A stretch of DNA of 48,060 nt from Chthonomonadales bacterium. GTDB taxonomy: Bacteria; Armatimonadota; Chthonomonadetes; Chthonomonadales; CAJBBX01. The DNA is taken from assembly GCA_012517255.1 (NCBI GenBank), contig JAAYVH010000090.1:1-48060 (forward strand), written 5' to 3'. Of the stretch, positions 19,948 to 39,338 are shown in pieces. Numbering within the stretch: position 1 is the first letter of the stretch; each line of letters begins with the position of its first letter. A program made the position numbers and the translations under genes. The notes beneath the pieces were generated by a model that worked only from the letters and a program-made list of their open reading frames with translations, was not told the origin of the DNA and did not search any database.

Positions 19948-19976
19948 CGGGCGTACGGGTTTGCTCGCTGTGACGT

Positions 19977-20130
19977 GGTCGTCGTCGTTCCGGGGGCTTG
20001 CGCCGCTCGGCTATCATCCATCGTCGCTACGCGACGATTCCGGGTGATGGGGGTCGTCGTCGTTCCGGGGGCTTGCGCCGCCCGGCTATCATCCATCGTC
20101 GCTACGCGACGACGATTCCGGGTGACGGGG
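19977..20130. repeat. Two tandem copies of a 75-78 bp hairpin repeat
   Basis: Unit 1 (19977-20051) and unit 2 (20052-20129) are nearly identical; unit 2 has one C/T and one A/C change and an extra GAC. Each contains two stem-loops. The first is CCGGG-GGC-TTGC-GCC-CCCGG-like. The second is ATCGTCGC-TAC-GCGACGAT (20020-20038 in unit 1), whose right arm is expanded in unit 2. It lies between an exported-protein gene and the promoter of the PPIase gene. There are no spacers, so it is not CRISPR. It is probably a REP-like element duplicated in place. Confidence 0.8.
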
Positions 20131-20145
20131 GGCGCAACGCACGGT

Positions 20146-34023: not shown

Positions 34024-37000
34024 TCAGTAGATGCGCACGATGGCCTCGCCGTAGCCCGCATCCACCCACGCATCGCCGCCGAACTCGCACCGGAGCGTAT
34101 GATCGCCAGGCGGCTCCACGGTGGTGTAGTTGTAGCGGGCAATGCCGGCATCGGATCCGCCAAGGGTGACGACGTCAGCGATCCAGGTGCCATCCAGCCG
34201 GAACGTGACGGTCTTGCCCACCTGCTTCTGATAGTCGGCCAGCCGCCGGAAGTAGGCATAGAGCCTCGCCACGCCTCCCTGCGGCACGGTCCGGGGCATG
34301 ACCCAGATGTATGGGATCGCCTTGTAGACGGTCAGCGTGTTGGCGCCCGACGAGGGCAAGTAGCCGCCGTCGCCGGCCCATTCGGCCAGGATCGTGCGGG
34401 TTCCCGCGCCTGCGCCATCGGCGATGGTGTATCCGACTTGCGCCAGTCCCGTGCTCCGCGTCACATCGGAAGCAATGAATGTGCCGTCCAGCTTGAAGGT
34501 GACCGTCTTGCCGACCACCGGGGTGTTATCGAGGCGGTAGAGCCACGCCTTGAACACGCGATAGGCCGTGATCCGGCCGTCACGGTTCACCCCGAACGTC
34601 TTGGTTGCATGGGTCTGCGCCGTCAAGGTCGCGGTGGCTGAGCTGGGCTCGTAGAGGGCATCGCCGGCGAACTCCGTGGTGATGGTTCGTGTGGCAGGGC
34701 CGTTCACGACCGTCCACAGGAGACTGCTGTCGCCGCCGGCGTTCGTCACCGCGGTCCCGACCGATGTGCCGTCTATGCGGAACGTGATGGCCTTTCCTTC
34801 GAGGAGCGCATTGTCGGATGTCCGCTTCAGGTCATATTGCCGCAGGTACACATATTCGGTGATAGTCCCGATGCGGTCAACGGTGTACTGGGTGGTCGGG
34901 GTCCGTGATTCAACGGTGAGTCTGACGGCGAACCCCTCCCCGTTGCCATTCGCAGATGGGTCGAACGCTCCGGCGGTTGTCGGGAATCCGTCGGACCAGG
35001 TATTGCCTGCCACGGCAATGGACGCGCCCGAGGCGGCAATGGCGAGACCGGTATCCGAGCCGTCGCCGCCAAGCAAGCTGCTGAACGCCAGAGTCGTGCC
35101 GTCCGGCGCCATCACGGTTACGAACGCGTCGAGATCGCCTGAGGTGAGCGCGGCGTCGAACGCATCGGGTGTGAGCGGAAAGTCCGTCGAGAAGGTGTAG
35201 CCGGTCACGGCCGCTCGATCGCCTGCGTTGAGAGCCAATCCCGTGATCGAGTCCCACGAGCTGCCGCCGAGGAGCGTGCTGTAGGACAGGCTCGCGCCGT
35301 TGGATGCCAACCGGACGATGAAACCGTCGCCTCCGCCCTGAAGCGACGTCTGGAAGGCCCCCGCTGTGGCGGGGAAGTTCGACGACCGCGTCTCGCCTCC
35401 GACGTAGAGCATGCCCGCAGCGCCGATGGCCACGCCATAGCCTGCGTCTGCGTCCGATCCGCCGATGAAGGTGCTGAACACGAGGGCGGTGGCATCAGAG
35501 GCGAGCTTCACGGCAAAGGCGTCGGATGGACCTCCTGCATACGCCGTCGCGTACGCCCCCGAACTCGTCGGGAAGCCGGTCGAGCTTGTCAGCCCTGTGA
35601 CTGCCGGTGCGCCAGAAGCATCCACCGCAATCGCCATCACATAGTCATCGCTGGCGCCGCCAAGGAACGTGCTGCAGACGAGGGTCGAGCCGTCGGCAGA
35701 CAGCTTCGCAACAACGGCATCCGAGGACCCTCCCGCGAACGATGTGCTGAAGGCGCCGAGCGTGGTTGGCCAGTCCGCCGACTGCGTGTAGCCGCCCAAC
35801 CAGACGTTGCCAGGAGTGTCCACTGCAACGGCATAGATGCAATCCCACGCCGTCCCGCCCAGGTACGTCCCGAACACGAGCGACGAGCCGTCGGGCGAGA
35901 GCTTCGCGACGAACGCGTCGCCATCAAGTCCGTTCTGGGCGGGCTGATAGGCGCCAGGGGTCGTCGGAAAGTTCCCGGAGACCGTCTCGCCGGCGATGAC
36001 AGCGTGGCCGGAGCCATCTACAGCGATCGTGTGGCAATGGTCCCAGTCTGAGCCGCCCATGTACGTGCCGTAGACGAGAGCGCTGCCCGACGGGTCAAGC
36101 TTCAGGACGAAGGCGTCGAGATCGCCGTTTGCGCTGGTGTCGAATGCGCCGGCAGTGGTGGGGAAATCGGCGCCGTACGTGTGACCCGTGACGTAGACCG
36201 CTCCCGACGCGTCGACGGCGACACCCTTCGAGCCGTCGTCGTCGGTACCGCCGAGGTAGGTCGAGAACTCCAGGACCGGATCCACCACCAGCGGCCTGGA
36301 CGCGTCGTACTTCGCGAGGCGCAAGGCTACGTCAGGCGAGGGGCGAGAGGCAAGAGGCGAGAGAAGGCGGTAGTCGCAGGCGACCTGCACGCGCTTGCCG
36401 CCGATGGTCTGGTAGGCGTAGGGGCGTCTCATGCGCACGTCGCCCGCCGGAGTGGTCAGGATAAGGTCGCCACCGGCAACCCGCACCTTCTCCGCGCCTT
36501 CGAGGGCGAGCCGGATGCGCGACGCGTCGGCGCCGGGATGGAGGATGAAGTCGTATTCGAGGGCTGAGAGCTGAGAGCTCAGAGCTGAGAGCGAACGACG
36601 CCCCTCATCCTGGCCCTCTCCCCGCAAGCGGGGCGAGGGGATGTTGGTCGCTCCTCTTGCCTCTTGCCCCTTGCCTCTGGCCTCCTGGCTCTTGGCTCTT
36701 GGCTCTCGGCTGTAATAGACGACATCAATCCCCGGATACACGCCGGCAAGCTTCGCCCTCGCATACGTGGGAACGTTGGTGCGCCACTTCTTCGGGTCGT
36801 TGCCGATGAAGTAGTTGACGATGCCCTGCTGCTTCTCGAGGCCCGATGCGAGAGCCTTACCGTTGGCCGCTACGAGCTTCATGCGGAGGACGGCTGAGGG
36901 CTGAGGGCTGAGAGCTGAAAGCGAACGACGCCCCTCGCCCTGACCCTCTCCCCGCCAGAAGGTTGAGGGGACCGTGGCGGCGCCGGCTGTCTGCTGAACC

Positions 37001-37257
37001 TTGCCTCTGGCCTCTGGCCTCTGGCCTCTTGCTCCGACAGGCAGGACCATCACAGCCTCGTTCCCGGTGATGAACACTGTGGCGCCGCCAGTGCGGGTCA
37101 CAAACTGCACGCGGCTATCGTAGCGGCCGGTGTTCTGCTCGAATGTGAGCGGCAGGCGCTGCTCAACGCGCCGCAGCGATTGCGCTCCCGCTCCCGTGCT
37201 CAGCCCTGCGGCGCATACCGCCATCGCCAGCGACACGATCGTTCGTTGCCTTTGCAT
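34024..37257 (-). CDS. Secreted SBBP-repeat propeller protein with DUF7948 domain and three Ig-like domains, carrying repeat insertions
   Basis: The 1077-residue exported protein has a signal peptide ending AGLSTGAGAQS and then a DUF7948-type domain (to about 300). It is recognised by LEKQQGIVNYFIGNDPKKWRTN split by YARAKLAGVYPGIDVVYY, LEYDFILHPGAD and PLVVDPVLEFSTYLGG. Seven SBBP blades follow, each with STYLGG-like and FPTTAGAF-like motifs, suggesting a seven-bladed propeller. Three Ig-like repeats end the chain (for example VTFKLDGTFIASDV and VTFRLDGTWIADVV). Function is unknown; such proteins are surface adhesins or enzyme scaffolds. Two in-frame insertions of about 48-49 residues and a short third one sit in DUF7948 loops (see repeats at 36333, 36559, 36890). 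The ATG at 37257 has GGAGGT 10 nt upstream. Confidence 0.9.
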   Translation of the reverse strand: MQRQRTIVSLAMAVCAAGLSTGAGAQSLRRVEQRLPLTFEQNTGRYDSRVQFVTRTGGATVFITGNEAVMVLPVGARGQRPEARGKVQQTAGAATVPSTFWRGEGQGEGRRSLSALSPQPSAVLRMKLVAANGKALASGLEKQQGIVNYFIGNDPKKWRTNVPTYARAKLAGVYPGIDVVYYSREPRAKSQEARGKGQEARGATNIPSPRLRGEGQDEGRRSLSALSSQLSALEYDFILHPGADASRIRLALEGAEKVRVAGGDLILTTPAGDVRMRRPYAYQTIGGKRVQVACDYRLLSPLASRPSPDVALRLAKYDASRPLVVDPVLEFSTYLGGTDDDGSKGVAVDASGAVYVTGHTYGADFPTTAGAFDTSANGDLDAFVLKLDPSGSALVYGTYMGGSDWDHCHTIAVDGSGHAVIAGETVSGNFPTTPGAYQPAQNGLDGDAFVAKLSPDGSSLVFGTYLGGTAWDCIYAVAVDTPGNVWLGGYTQSADWPTTLGAFSTSFAGGSSDAVVAKLSADGSTLVCSTFLGGASDDYVMAIAVDASGAPAVTGLTSSTGFPTSSGAYATAYAGGPSDAFAVKLASDATALVFSTFIGGSDADAGYGVAIGAAGMLYVGGETRSSNFPATAGAFQTSLQGGGDGFIVRLASNGASLSYSTLLGGSSWDSITGLALNAGDRAAVTGYTFSTDFPLTPDAFDAALTSGDLDAFVTVMAPDGTTLAFSSLLGGDGSDTGLAIAASGASIAVAGNTWSDGFPTTAGAFDPSANGNGEGFAVRLTVESRTPTTQYTVDRIGTITEYVYLRQYDLKRTSDNALLEGKAITFRIDGTSVGTAVTNAGGDSSLLWTVVNGPATRTITTEFAGDALYEPSSATATLTAQTHATKTFGVNRDGRITAYRVFKAWLYRLDNTPVVGKTVTFKLDGTFIASDVTRSTGLAQVGYTIADGAGAGTRTILAEWAGDGGYLPSSGANTLTVYKAIPYIWVMPRTVPQGGVARLYAYFRRLADYQKQVGKTVTFRLDGTWIADVVTLGGSDAGIARYNYTTVEPPGDHTLRCEFGGDAWVDAGYGEAIVRIY
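36333..36371. repeat. Short heptamer array inside the SBBP gene (third insertion)
   Basis: GGCGAGG-GGCGAGA-GGCAAGA-GGCGAGA repeats with a 7-nt period. On the coding strand it is read as LLSPLASRPSP between ACDYR and DVALRLAKYD of the DUF7948 domain, a position where relatives have a short turn. Confidence 0.75.
36559..36714. repeat. Heptamer-hairpin-heptamer element inside the SBBP gene (second insertion)
   Basis: A left array of GAGCTGA-type heptamers (about five units, 36562-36595) and a right array of CCTCTTG/GCTCTTG heptamers (about eight units, 36653-36712) flank a hairpin with arms 36614-36625 and 36628-36639 (CCCTCTCCCCGC/GCGGGGCGAGGG). It is about 155 bp, and the reading frame passes through it, giving a 49-residue insert between VVYYS and LEYDF. 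Confidence 0.85.
36890..37038. repeat. Heptamer-hairpin-heptamer element inside the SBBP gene (first insertion)
   Basis: A left array of GGGCTGA/GAGCTGA heptamers, a CGAACGACGCCCCTCGCC-type core shared with the second element, a degenerate hairpin (CTCTCCCCGCC...GGTTGAGGGG) and a right array of CCTCTGG heptamers. It is about 149 bp and is read in the same frame as the second element, giving 48 residues between VMVLPV and LRMKLVAANG. Confidence 0.85.
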
Positions 37258-37313
37258 CCGTCCACCTACCTCCTGCACGCGATGTCGTTGGGGCCCGTTG
37301 ATGACAGCGCGAG

Positions 37314-39338
37314 CTACTTTGTCGAGCGTTGCCACAGCGAGTATACGTCAGGTTGCCCCGATGCGCCAGAGCCTCCGCCTCGGCTGGCCCATGCGTCCAA
37401 CCCATCGGCAAGCCTCTGCACGGCTTCGACATAACTCATGTCGGCAGCGCGCCGTGATGCTTCGGGAAGCTCGGGCAGTCTGCCAGCCTTCCTAAGCGCC
37501 AGTCGCTCGAGGACGGCCTCACGATAGCGCAGAATGAGCGCGGCATGGGAGCCTGCATAGGTCTCGTGGAGACCCGCATGCCTCAAGGCGTCATAGAACC
37601 GCGCGACCCGATCTATGGCTGCCGCGGCCTTTCCTGCCAGCGCTTCATCGCCGGCAAGCTCGCGCAGCGCCGCGGCAATGTCCGCGTCGGTCCGCCTCAG
37701 ATCGTGCGGCGGCGCCAGGCCCCGGACGGCCCGTCTCGGCCGACCTGACCCGAGCAGGATCGAGACCTGCGCAGAGGCCGGCAACGCGTCATAGCGCAGC
37801 GCCACGGTCTCGCCGTCATGGTCACCGCCGGGCTTGCCGTTGATCAGGACCGAACGCACCGGTCCTTCTCCGCTGATGTCGAGATAGATGCGCTTCGAGC
37901 CCCACAGGACCGGAAACCGCTGCTCGAGGCAACTGATGCCGGGAGGGATGTGGGGAACGAGCGTCAGCGTATCTGCCTTGTAGAGATACTCGAACAGGCC
38001 GCGCAACATGCCCAGAGGCGCGCCCCATGTGTCGTAGCAGCAGTTGATGGGGTGTTGCGGCTGATAGACGGCGTTACCGAACTCGACGAGCGGGTTATCG
38101 GTGCGAAACATGCGAGCGAACTTCAGGATGTGCTCCATGGCTCGCCGCGCGGCGGCGTAGCCCCCCATGCGGAAGTCCGCGAGGATCATGCGCGCTTCGC
38201 AGGTAGTCCAGTGGCCGCCGTTGACCCATGTTCCGAACTGCCAGAGGCCCGTCGGCTCGGTGTACATGTCGTCGAGCGACGGGTAGTTCGTGATGACGAC
38301 GCCATGAGGTCGCAGGCCCGCTATCCGGGCCATCTTCGCGTAGATTCGCCGGGCCTGTTCGTCGGCTACCACTCGAAGGGCTACGGCGTCATGGTTGCAG
38401 ACCGCCTCGAAGTAGCCGTGCTTCGGCTCGCCGTACACGCCGTGGCGCACGCCGTCGGGATCGAGCGACTTGATCAGATAGCCTTCCTCGGTCGTGACCC
38501 TCGCCAGACCCAACCTGGCTCGACGACTGCGTTCGGCATAGCGTCCGGCCTCAACGGGCCTCCCGGCAAGCTTCTCGAGCTCGGCAAGACGGTCCAGCGC
38601 GGCTATGTAGGTCACCGACAGACCGGTGAGATAGCCCATGCCGTAGGTTCCGTCGGCTCTTCGGTGGCCGGCGTAGCTCGGCGCCAGGAGGTTGCCCGCC
38701 GGACCGGCGAGAAAGAGCTCATTCTCAGGATCGCGGCGGCTCGCCACAAACTCGGCGCAGCGCTCGAGCATGGGCAGATAGCGCCGGATCGCCGTCTCGT
38801 CGCGCGACATGAGCAGGAGTTCCGCCTGCATCACGATCCCCGCTGCGGTGAACTCCACGCCCCAGTCATGGATGGCGATGTTGCCATCGCCCTGCTTGTA
38901 GACGACCCAGCCGGGCGCCGCCGCGTCGCACAGGCACCCGTCCGGCGCAACCCAATCGTGGGCTCCCTTGCGCTTGCCATTGCCCATCTGATCAAACCAG
39001 AGGTCCTGGGCGTTCTGAAGGAACGTGCGGTAGGGCTCGGTGAAGAAGGGCAGCCCGCAGTAGGTGGGTCCGTAGCTGTTCTGGATCCACCATGCGCCCC
39101 AGGTCGGGCCTTCGACGAAGCCGTTCCATGCCGGCGAGTAGAGCATGGAGAGGTTCTGGAGCTCGCCGTTGGGCCAGACCATGCGATAACAGGTGTTCAG
39201 CAGGTCAAGAAACTCCATGTCTCCCTCTCCGGCCACGTATCTGTTCGGCTGTGGCCGGCGCGCATCAAGGGTTCCGACAGCGGTGGCCGCGCCAACCGCT
39301 CCCACGAGCAGCTCTCTCCTGTTCAGGCGGGTATCCAT
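37314..39338 (-). CDS. Tat-exported six-hairpin (MGH1-like/GH63-GH78 clan) glycosidase
   Basis: The 674-residue protein opens with a Tat signal (NRRELLVGAVGAATAVG). The body is an (alpha/alpha)6 barrel: SPAWNGFVEGPTWGAWWIQNSY, GVEFTAAGIVMQAELLL, YGMGYLTGLSVTYIAALDRL, LWQFGTWVNGGHWTTCEARM and INCCYDTWGAPLG. A short beta domain follows (KRIYLDISGEGPVRSVLINGKPGG). This architecture is shared by GH63, GH78 rhamnosidase-like and MGH1-like enzymes; the exact family and sugar are not certain. A C-terminal helical stretch of about 120 residues (DADIAAALRELAG to YSLWQRS) is unusual and may be an interaction domain. GGAGGGG precedes the start at 39338. The SBBP gene follows 56 bp downstream on the same strand, so a two-gene operon is likely. 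Confidence 0.83.
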   Translation of the reverse strand: MDTRLNRRELLVGAVGAATAVGTLDARRPQPNRYVAGEGDMEFLDLLNTCYRMVWPNGELQNLSMLYSPAWNGFVEGPTWGAWWIQNSYGPTYCGLPFFTEPYRTFLQNAQDLWFDQMGNGKRKGAHDWVAPDGCLCDAAAPGWVVYKQGDGNIAIHDWGVEFTAAGIVMQAELLLMSRDETAIRRYLPMLERCAEFVASRRDPENELFLAGPAGNLLAPSYAGHRRADGTYGMGYLTGLSVTYIAALDRLAELEKLAGRPVEAGRYAERSRRARLGLARVTTEEGYLIKSLDPDGVRHGVYGEPKHGYFEAVCNHDAVALRVVADEQARRIYAKMARIAGLRPHGVVITNYPSLDDMYTEPTGLWQFGTWVNGGHWTTCEARMILADFRMGGYAAARRAMEHILKFARMFRTDNPLVEFGNAVYQPQHPINCCYDTWGAPLGMLRGLFEYLYKADTLTLVPHIPPGISCLEQRFPVLWGSKRIYLDISGEGPVRSVLINGKPGGDHDGETVALRYDALPASAQVSILLGSGRPRRAVRGLAPPHDLRRTDADIAAALRELAGDEALAGKAAAAIDRVARFYDALRHAGLHETYAGSHAALILRYREAVLERLALRKAGRLPELPEASRRAADMSYVEAVQRLADGLDAWASRGGGSGASGQPDVYSLWQRSTK

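Follow-up and report, generated by a model that had tools for sequence, protein, structure and literature searches.

Heptamer arrays and a hairpin within the reading frame of a DUF7948 gene in a Chthonomonadales bacterium

Several described families of short repeats come close to the sequences analysed here. The heptamer TAACTGA forms direct repeats in Beggiatoaceae, cyanobacteria and Bacteroidetes (MacGregor 2015, PMC4679880); these are dispersed and mostly intergenic, some overlap the upstream stop codon, others run through ORFs, and then only in the orientation that lacks stops, and orthologous sets differ by 7-nt steps. This one fixed heptamer occurs in the BOGUAY genome in sets of 2 to 6, mostly just upstream of start codons. 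The G-rich heptamers of Xanthomonas and Nostoc (PMC4692102) are fixed G-tract units with quadruplex potential that lie near or overlap stop codons and keep homologous places, with wide variation in length and sequence; in Xanthomonas, 7 to 11% of them are intragenic. Among palindromes, Rickettsia palindromic elements (RPEs, reviewed in PMC10969869) are repeats of about 150 bp, in families of many similar copies, found in frame in unrelated genes. REPs of the GTAG and CGTC super-families (Di Nocera 2013, PMC3733652) are short GC-rich intergenic palindromes beside gene 3' ends. Some genes contain two of them, some REPs form clusters that encode 43 to 82 aa, and some supply the stop codon. Finally, Borg tandem repeats (PMC9879509) situated in ORFs have unit lengths divisible by three and yield disordered segments.

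We report on a gene of a Chthonomonadales bacterium, lying in a stretch of 48,060 nt (the window), in which heptamer arrays and a hairpin are read as part of a surface-type protein. Our reading, which we consider probable, is that repeat DNA of two kinds came together in permissive loops of the protein, where it is now translated.

Anatomy and reading frame of the inserts

Pfam recognizes DUF7948 (2.8e-54), SBBP and Big_3_5 in the 1103-aa ORF of the host gene, and TRF finds five period-7 arrays in its DUF7948 part (Table 1). No period-7 array scoring above 40 occurs in 1.9 Mb of shuffled window sequence (40 first-order Markov shuffles). The two long inserts, of about 150 bp each, have the same order of heptamers, hairpin core and heptamers; they are 78% identical, ungapped, over 143 nt, and GAACGACGCCCCTC is exactly common to both. 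An example of the peptides they encode is GQEARGATNIPSPR; for the insert peptide, nothing was found in the literature. An earlier note on this DNA, made from the letters alone, had described three in-frame inserts in an SBBP protein gene, and this anatomy is borne out by the arrays, the identity, the single open ORF and the Pfam domains. The window holds further tandem repeats at 19970-20131 (75 bp, between predicted genes) and 205-325 (59 bp).

Table 1. Positions of the host gene and of the parts of its inserts in the window
Feature	Position	Strand	Remarks
Host gene, DUF7948 + SBBP beta-propeller repeats + Big_3_5	34024..37335	-	1103 aa; start codon uncertain, 37335 or 37236
Five period-7 arrays (TRF)	36334-36363, 36559-36592, 36653-36706, 36892-36918, 37003-37029		scores 46-66
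Site 3, short heptamer array	36333..36370	-	AGGCGAG/AGGCAAG on +; between ACDYR and VALRL
Site 2, long insert	36559-36716
Site 2 element, heptamers GAGAGCT on +	36559..36592	-	coding strand TCTCAGC, the stop-free orientation
Site 2 hairpin core	36590..36652	-	CCCCTC-CCTG-CCCTCTCCCC-GCAAGC-GGGG.GAGGGGA; stem ~36614-36640; translated IPSPRLRGEGQDEG
Site 2 element, heptamers CCTCTTG on +	36653..36716	-	coding strand purine-rich; translated EARGKGQEARG
Site 1, long insert	36889-37036
Site 1 element, heptamers GGCTGAG on +	36889..36922	-
Site 1 core, decayed hairpin	36923..36972	-	translated STFWRGEGQGEG
Site 1 element, heptamers GCCTCTG on +	37003..37036	-

Of the two central hairpins noted earlier, that of site 2 is well formed (DNA fold -11.3 kcal/mol, z -1.6), but that of site 1 has decayed (-6.4, z -0.3). 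The corresponding core of the ortholog in a sister species of the same genus folds at -13.6 (z -2.9).

All three inserts lie within a single open frame, which the earlier note had taken, together with the loop placement, as a hint of selection or of a mobile unit that tolerates coding sequence. The frame is indeed common to all, but because 7 mod 3 = 1, successive heptamers run through every codon phase, and an array gives the same cyclic heptapeptide in whichever frame it is read; the sharing of the frame is therefore nearly automatic and carries little information. The core alone encodes a peptide that depends on the frame; in the site 2 element, five of the six frames through it are open. 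The two cores would share their frame as a matter of course if either was copied from the other. GAGCTGA arrays contain TGA on one strand and no stop on the other, so that they can persist in genes only as TCTCAGC, the orientation found here; MacGregor made the same frame and stop argument for TAACTGA (PMC4679880). Heptamers being frame-neutral, the entry of arrays on their stop-free strand would be limited only by total length modulo three and by stop codons.

Loops of the DUF7948 domain in relatives

The turn LVYYG/LEYDF, where site 2 lies, measures 49 aa here and 54 aa in the sister species, against 4 to 10 aa in 28 relatives from the phylum. Site 1 is a naturally variable linker (49 aa here, 4 to 33 aa in relatives), and site 3, at 12 aa against 4 to 21 aa, differs little. 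AlphaFold2, given the domain with 26 sequences, assigns both long inserts a pLDDT of about 45 to 55 and the flanking strands 85 to 98; the two long inserts are thus predicted to be disordered loops between strands. The placement in loops claimed earlier is supported by alignment and structure prediction for these two, whereas at site 3 the excess over relatives is slight. No fold relative of DUF7948 was found in the PDB at E<=0.001. In one genus of the same family, DUF7948 paralogs have expanded greatly: the genomes G028, G029 and G030 each have 37 to 54 matches to the domain.

The inserts could be ordinary low-complexity linkers of DUF7948, selected as peptides, with only an incidental heptamer look. 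The variation of site 1 among relatives would agree with this, and the earlier note had held that unrelated sequence of equal length in relatives would speak against a mobile repeat; this is partly what site 1 shows. At site 2, on the other hand, all 28 relatives outside the genus have a short turn, the same heptamers lie between genes, and the period of 7 goes far beyond shuffles, which makes such an origin very improbable.

The ortholog in the sister genome (G034:C185) carries the same composite at site 2, in frame, with a 5' array of equal length and one indel of 5 codons (15 nt). Its site 3 holds a different heptamer, CCACTCA, and its site 1, located at the contig start, a different sequence. 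Between the two species, dN is 0.20 and dS 0.46 in the site 2 insert (dN/dS about 0.43, on few sites), compared with 0.15 and 0.61 (dN/dS 0.25) in the rest of the domain. The insert thus appears to be orthologous, kept in frame and, as far as few sites can tell, under more relaxed selection. Selection after insertion, as the earlier note had proposed, fits with this placement and with a site 2 that is long in both species of the genus and short in the 28 other relatives.

Conservation between the two species also bears on the quality of the data. The window genome is a draft MAG of 327 contigs, and repeats can mis-assemble; yet an independent bin of the genus has the orthologous insert in frame, and all array-bearing ORFs stay open, so that an artefact of assembly or binning is extremely unlikely.

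A role of the arrays as switches (phase variation by 7-base slippage) or as RNA structures was also considered. As 7 is not a multiple of three, a change of one unit would shift the frame, and repeat domains like those of this protein are typical of exported ones. The units are degenerate, however, the single indel at site 2 is of 15 nt beside a 5' array of constant length, and such arrays are also found in metabolic enzymes and in spacers. Moreover, the fold of the whole element is not better than that of shuffles (z -0.39) and Rfam gives no match. We regard such a function as improbable.

Returning to repeat DNA that entered permissive loops, the common ancestor of both species would have gained heptamers and hairpin in the turn of site 2. 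Site 1 would be a related copy in a naturally variable loop, probably copied within the gene, and a short array would have been gained at site 3. The gapped identity of the site 1 and site 2 elements (74%) equals that of the site 2 element and its counterpart in the sister species (74%), which suggests that this copying dates from about the time of the species split, if not from before it. Array units would then turn over by slippage or homogenisation, and their effect on the protein would be close to neutral. A heptamer-derived peptide, LRTQHSALRTQHPTV, is also present at site 1 of DUF7948 in L096 of G003, which belongs to another family of the phylum; uptake of heptamers by this loop thus happened more than once.

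Heptamers and hairpins elsewhere in the genus

A blastn search of the window genome with the 155-bp element gives 76 matches, nearly all to its heptamer parts. Similar arrays are present at about 25 further loci examined in this genome, mostly intergenic and often touching a stop codon. In an unbiased 653-kb sample of it, five period-7 arrays scoring at least 46 lie at four loci, which would scale to a few dozen arrays in the genome. TRF units include GAGCTGA, GCCTCTC, GCCTTCA and GAAGGGT. The tabulation of genic and intergenic copies suggested earlier comes out mostly intergenic: of 51 array loci in both species, counted apart from the window gene and its ortholog and partly picked by similarity to the window element, 12 are inside predicted genes, though about 84% of the DNA is coding. 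This census is based on the 653-kb sample and targeted loci from two draft MAGs of the genus, with a codon-usage gene caller.

Among co-directional intergenic arrays, 12 of 25 are no more than 3 nt away from the stop codon of the upstream gene (1.6 expected). Several start exactly at the stop (L113:1457, L118:4289, L120:2250, L115:1625, L114:1723, L250:2577, L256:203 and others), which is then made of a T and the first two bases of the array, giving TGA or TAG. A bias toward stop codons is on record for the Xanthomonas and Nostoc heptamers (PMC4692102), for TAACTGA (PMC4679880) and for REPs (PMC3733652). Orthologous spacers (L113/L253 and L118/L248) have arrays in the same place in both species; in L113:1380-2120 and L253:1985-2680, the places are the same and the units differ (GCRAGAG versus GCTGAGA). 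The stop upstream of this last pair differs with the array: the last codon is followed in both species by T and the array, giving GTG TAG/GC in one and GTG TGA/GG in the other. Such a junction relates to a more speculative reading, to which we give a small chance: a process of the genus might actively overwrite DNA with heptamers up to the last base protected by selection, leaving frame-neutral heptapeptides in the loops of genes, with the hairpin as seed or partner. At L123 (7305-7500 and 9272-9548), each unit of an 81-bp repeat inside predicted ORFs contains heptamer pieces, a pattern like that expected if a coding repeat had multiplied together with an array.

The earlier note had described repeated invasion of one domain; in-frame arrays are not limited to it, being also found in a GH2 enzyme, an FGGY kinase, a RidA-like protein and further proteins that have no Pfam match. 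Where the FGGY kinase has an array here, the sister and three further relatives show a short turn of the usual kind. The RidA-like gene has a 186-bp array here, and its sister ortholog is devoid of heptamers. In GH2, heptamers here correspond, at the same point, to a different GC-rich repeat-like insert in the sister (L263, G034:C274). These comparisons suggest that tolerant loops collect different repeats in different lineages. Hairpins behave similarly in a GH88-like gene, where one is in frame in the sister (L202:12305) and absent from the ortholog here (L184).

The hairpin core has a distribution of its own. No copy was found elsewhere in the window genome, outside the two inserts of the one gene. 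In the sister genome, the same arms as here, CCCTCACCCTGACCCTCTCCC and GGGAGAGGGGA, form a palindrome of about 72 bp, with constant spacing, in at least 12 mostly intergenic copies, mostly without heptamers; the loop of the window hairpin is shorter than in this dispersed family. The core pattern is present in 26 of 291 genomes of the phylum, a few of which have many copies. Across 84,980 species, the GACG-core pattern occurs in four stretches of three genomes (Hyphomicrobiales, Mycoplana and Chloroflexi), and no arrays are visible beside the core in these four. A core lies beside period-7 arrays in the sister genome (L248 clearly, L243 weakly), in G058 (L053, L076) and in G136 (L060). At the same score, 4 of about 37 core loci are near arrays, against 3 of 400 control chunks: co-location of hairpin and heptamers is above chance but modest, and some mechanistic link is conceivable. 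The order purine-heptamer, centre, pyrimidine-heptamer recurs at L118, L112 (FGGY) and L130.

Could the whole heptamer-hairpin-heptamer block move as a single element, of MITE or RPE-like type, that entered the gene on two or three occasions? Such was the class proposed in the earlier note. Compatible with it would be the gene's two blocks, alike in order and of high ungapped identity, the presence of this block in the sister ortholog as well, and the hairpin with heptamers at the sister's intergenic L248. However, no further complete block exists in the window genome, arrays and hairpins are mostly found apart, and array units, lengths and phases vary among loci. By the criteria applied to MITEs, no constant composite ends were seen, and empty-site comparisons, in which flanks have diverged, reveal no clear target duplication (none obvious by eye at the FGGY site). 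A genome search without other copies, which the earlier note had named as evidence against a mobile repeat, is what we obtained for the core, though not for the heptamers. We therefore consider a single mobile unit unlikely, and the composite as a dispersed unit was dropped as leading view, its core being confined to one gene and hairpins and heptamers mostly separate.

The distributions fit better with repeat DNA received by permissive loops. The genus would have two independent circulating repeats: period-7 arrays, with related purine/pyrimidine units such as GCTGAGA, GCRAGAG and GAAGGGT, and, in the sister, the REP-like palindrome. Both would reside mostly between genes, surviving in coding DNA only as an open, in-frame, disordered stretch at a tolerant turn.

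Comparison with described systems

These data do not establish composite mobile elements as a class of their own; the locus is a clear case, and a fresh example, of a known process by which intergenic repeats become protein loops, with no new kind of element. It illustrates a route from non-coding repeats to protein: on its open strand, a 7-base array may enter any frame, give the same peptide and supply a ready-made disordered loop. The sister species offers occupied and empty sites in enzymes (FGGY, GH2, RidA, GH88-like), by which gain, homogenisation and effect are testable. For annotation, peptides such as LSALSSQLSA, EARGEGQEARG and PSPRLRGEGQGEG are to be read as translated repeat DNA, which may cause false similarity among unrelated proteins.

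With exact 7-nt tandem units at many loci, mostly intergenic near gene ends, the arrays have the features of dispersed heptamers (STRR or long SSR); their TRF units do not match TAACTGA or GGGAATC, the two published units compared. They resemble TAACTGA repeats (PMC4679880) in their dispersal, overlap with upstream stops, stop-free reading through ORFs and differences between orthologous sets. In contrast to these, several degenerate units are found here; the arrays are longer, lie for the most part at the 3' ends of genes and, inside proteins, fall within domains rather than at protein ends. Retention of place with variable length and sequence, near or over stops, is shared with the Xanthomonas and Nostoc heptamers (PMC4692102), which are fixed G-tract units. 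Among coding repeats, those of Borgs (PMC9879509) likewise yield disordered segments; there the units are multiples of three, whereas here 7 is tolerated, all frames being equivalent.

REP/RAYT membership of the sister hairpins was rejected, tag and transposase not being found in the sister: GTAG is directly 5' of the first arm in 1 of 12 copies, CGTC or GACG in none of 12, and the Y1 transposase that accompanies the GTAG type (PF01797) is absent from the sister genome (it has four matches in G000). In size and place these hairpins resemble REPs (PMC3733652), and, as a short GC-rich palindrome, they reach many copies in the sister, the window genome having only two. Set beside RPEs by description (PMC10969869), the window gene has an in-frame palindromic insert of similar length in coding sequence, but with two core copies in one gene and heptamer flanks. 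What is new relative to these systems is the presence of both repeat kinds in one insert, its ancestral retention, and the replacement of array units between species.
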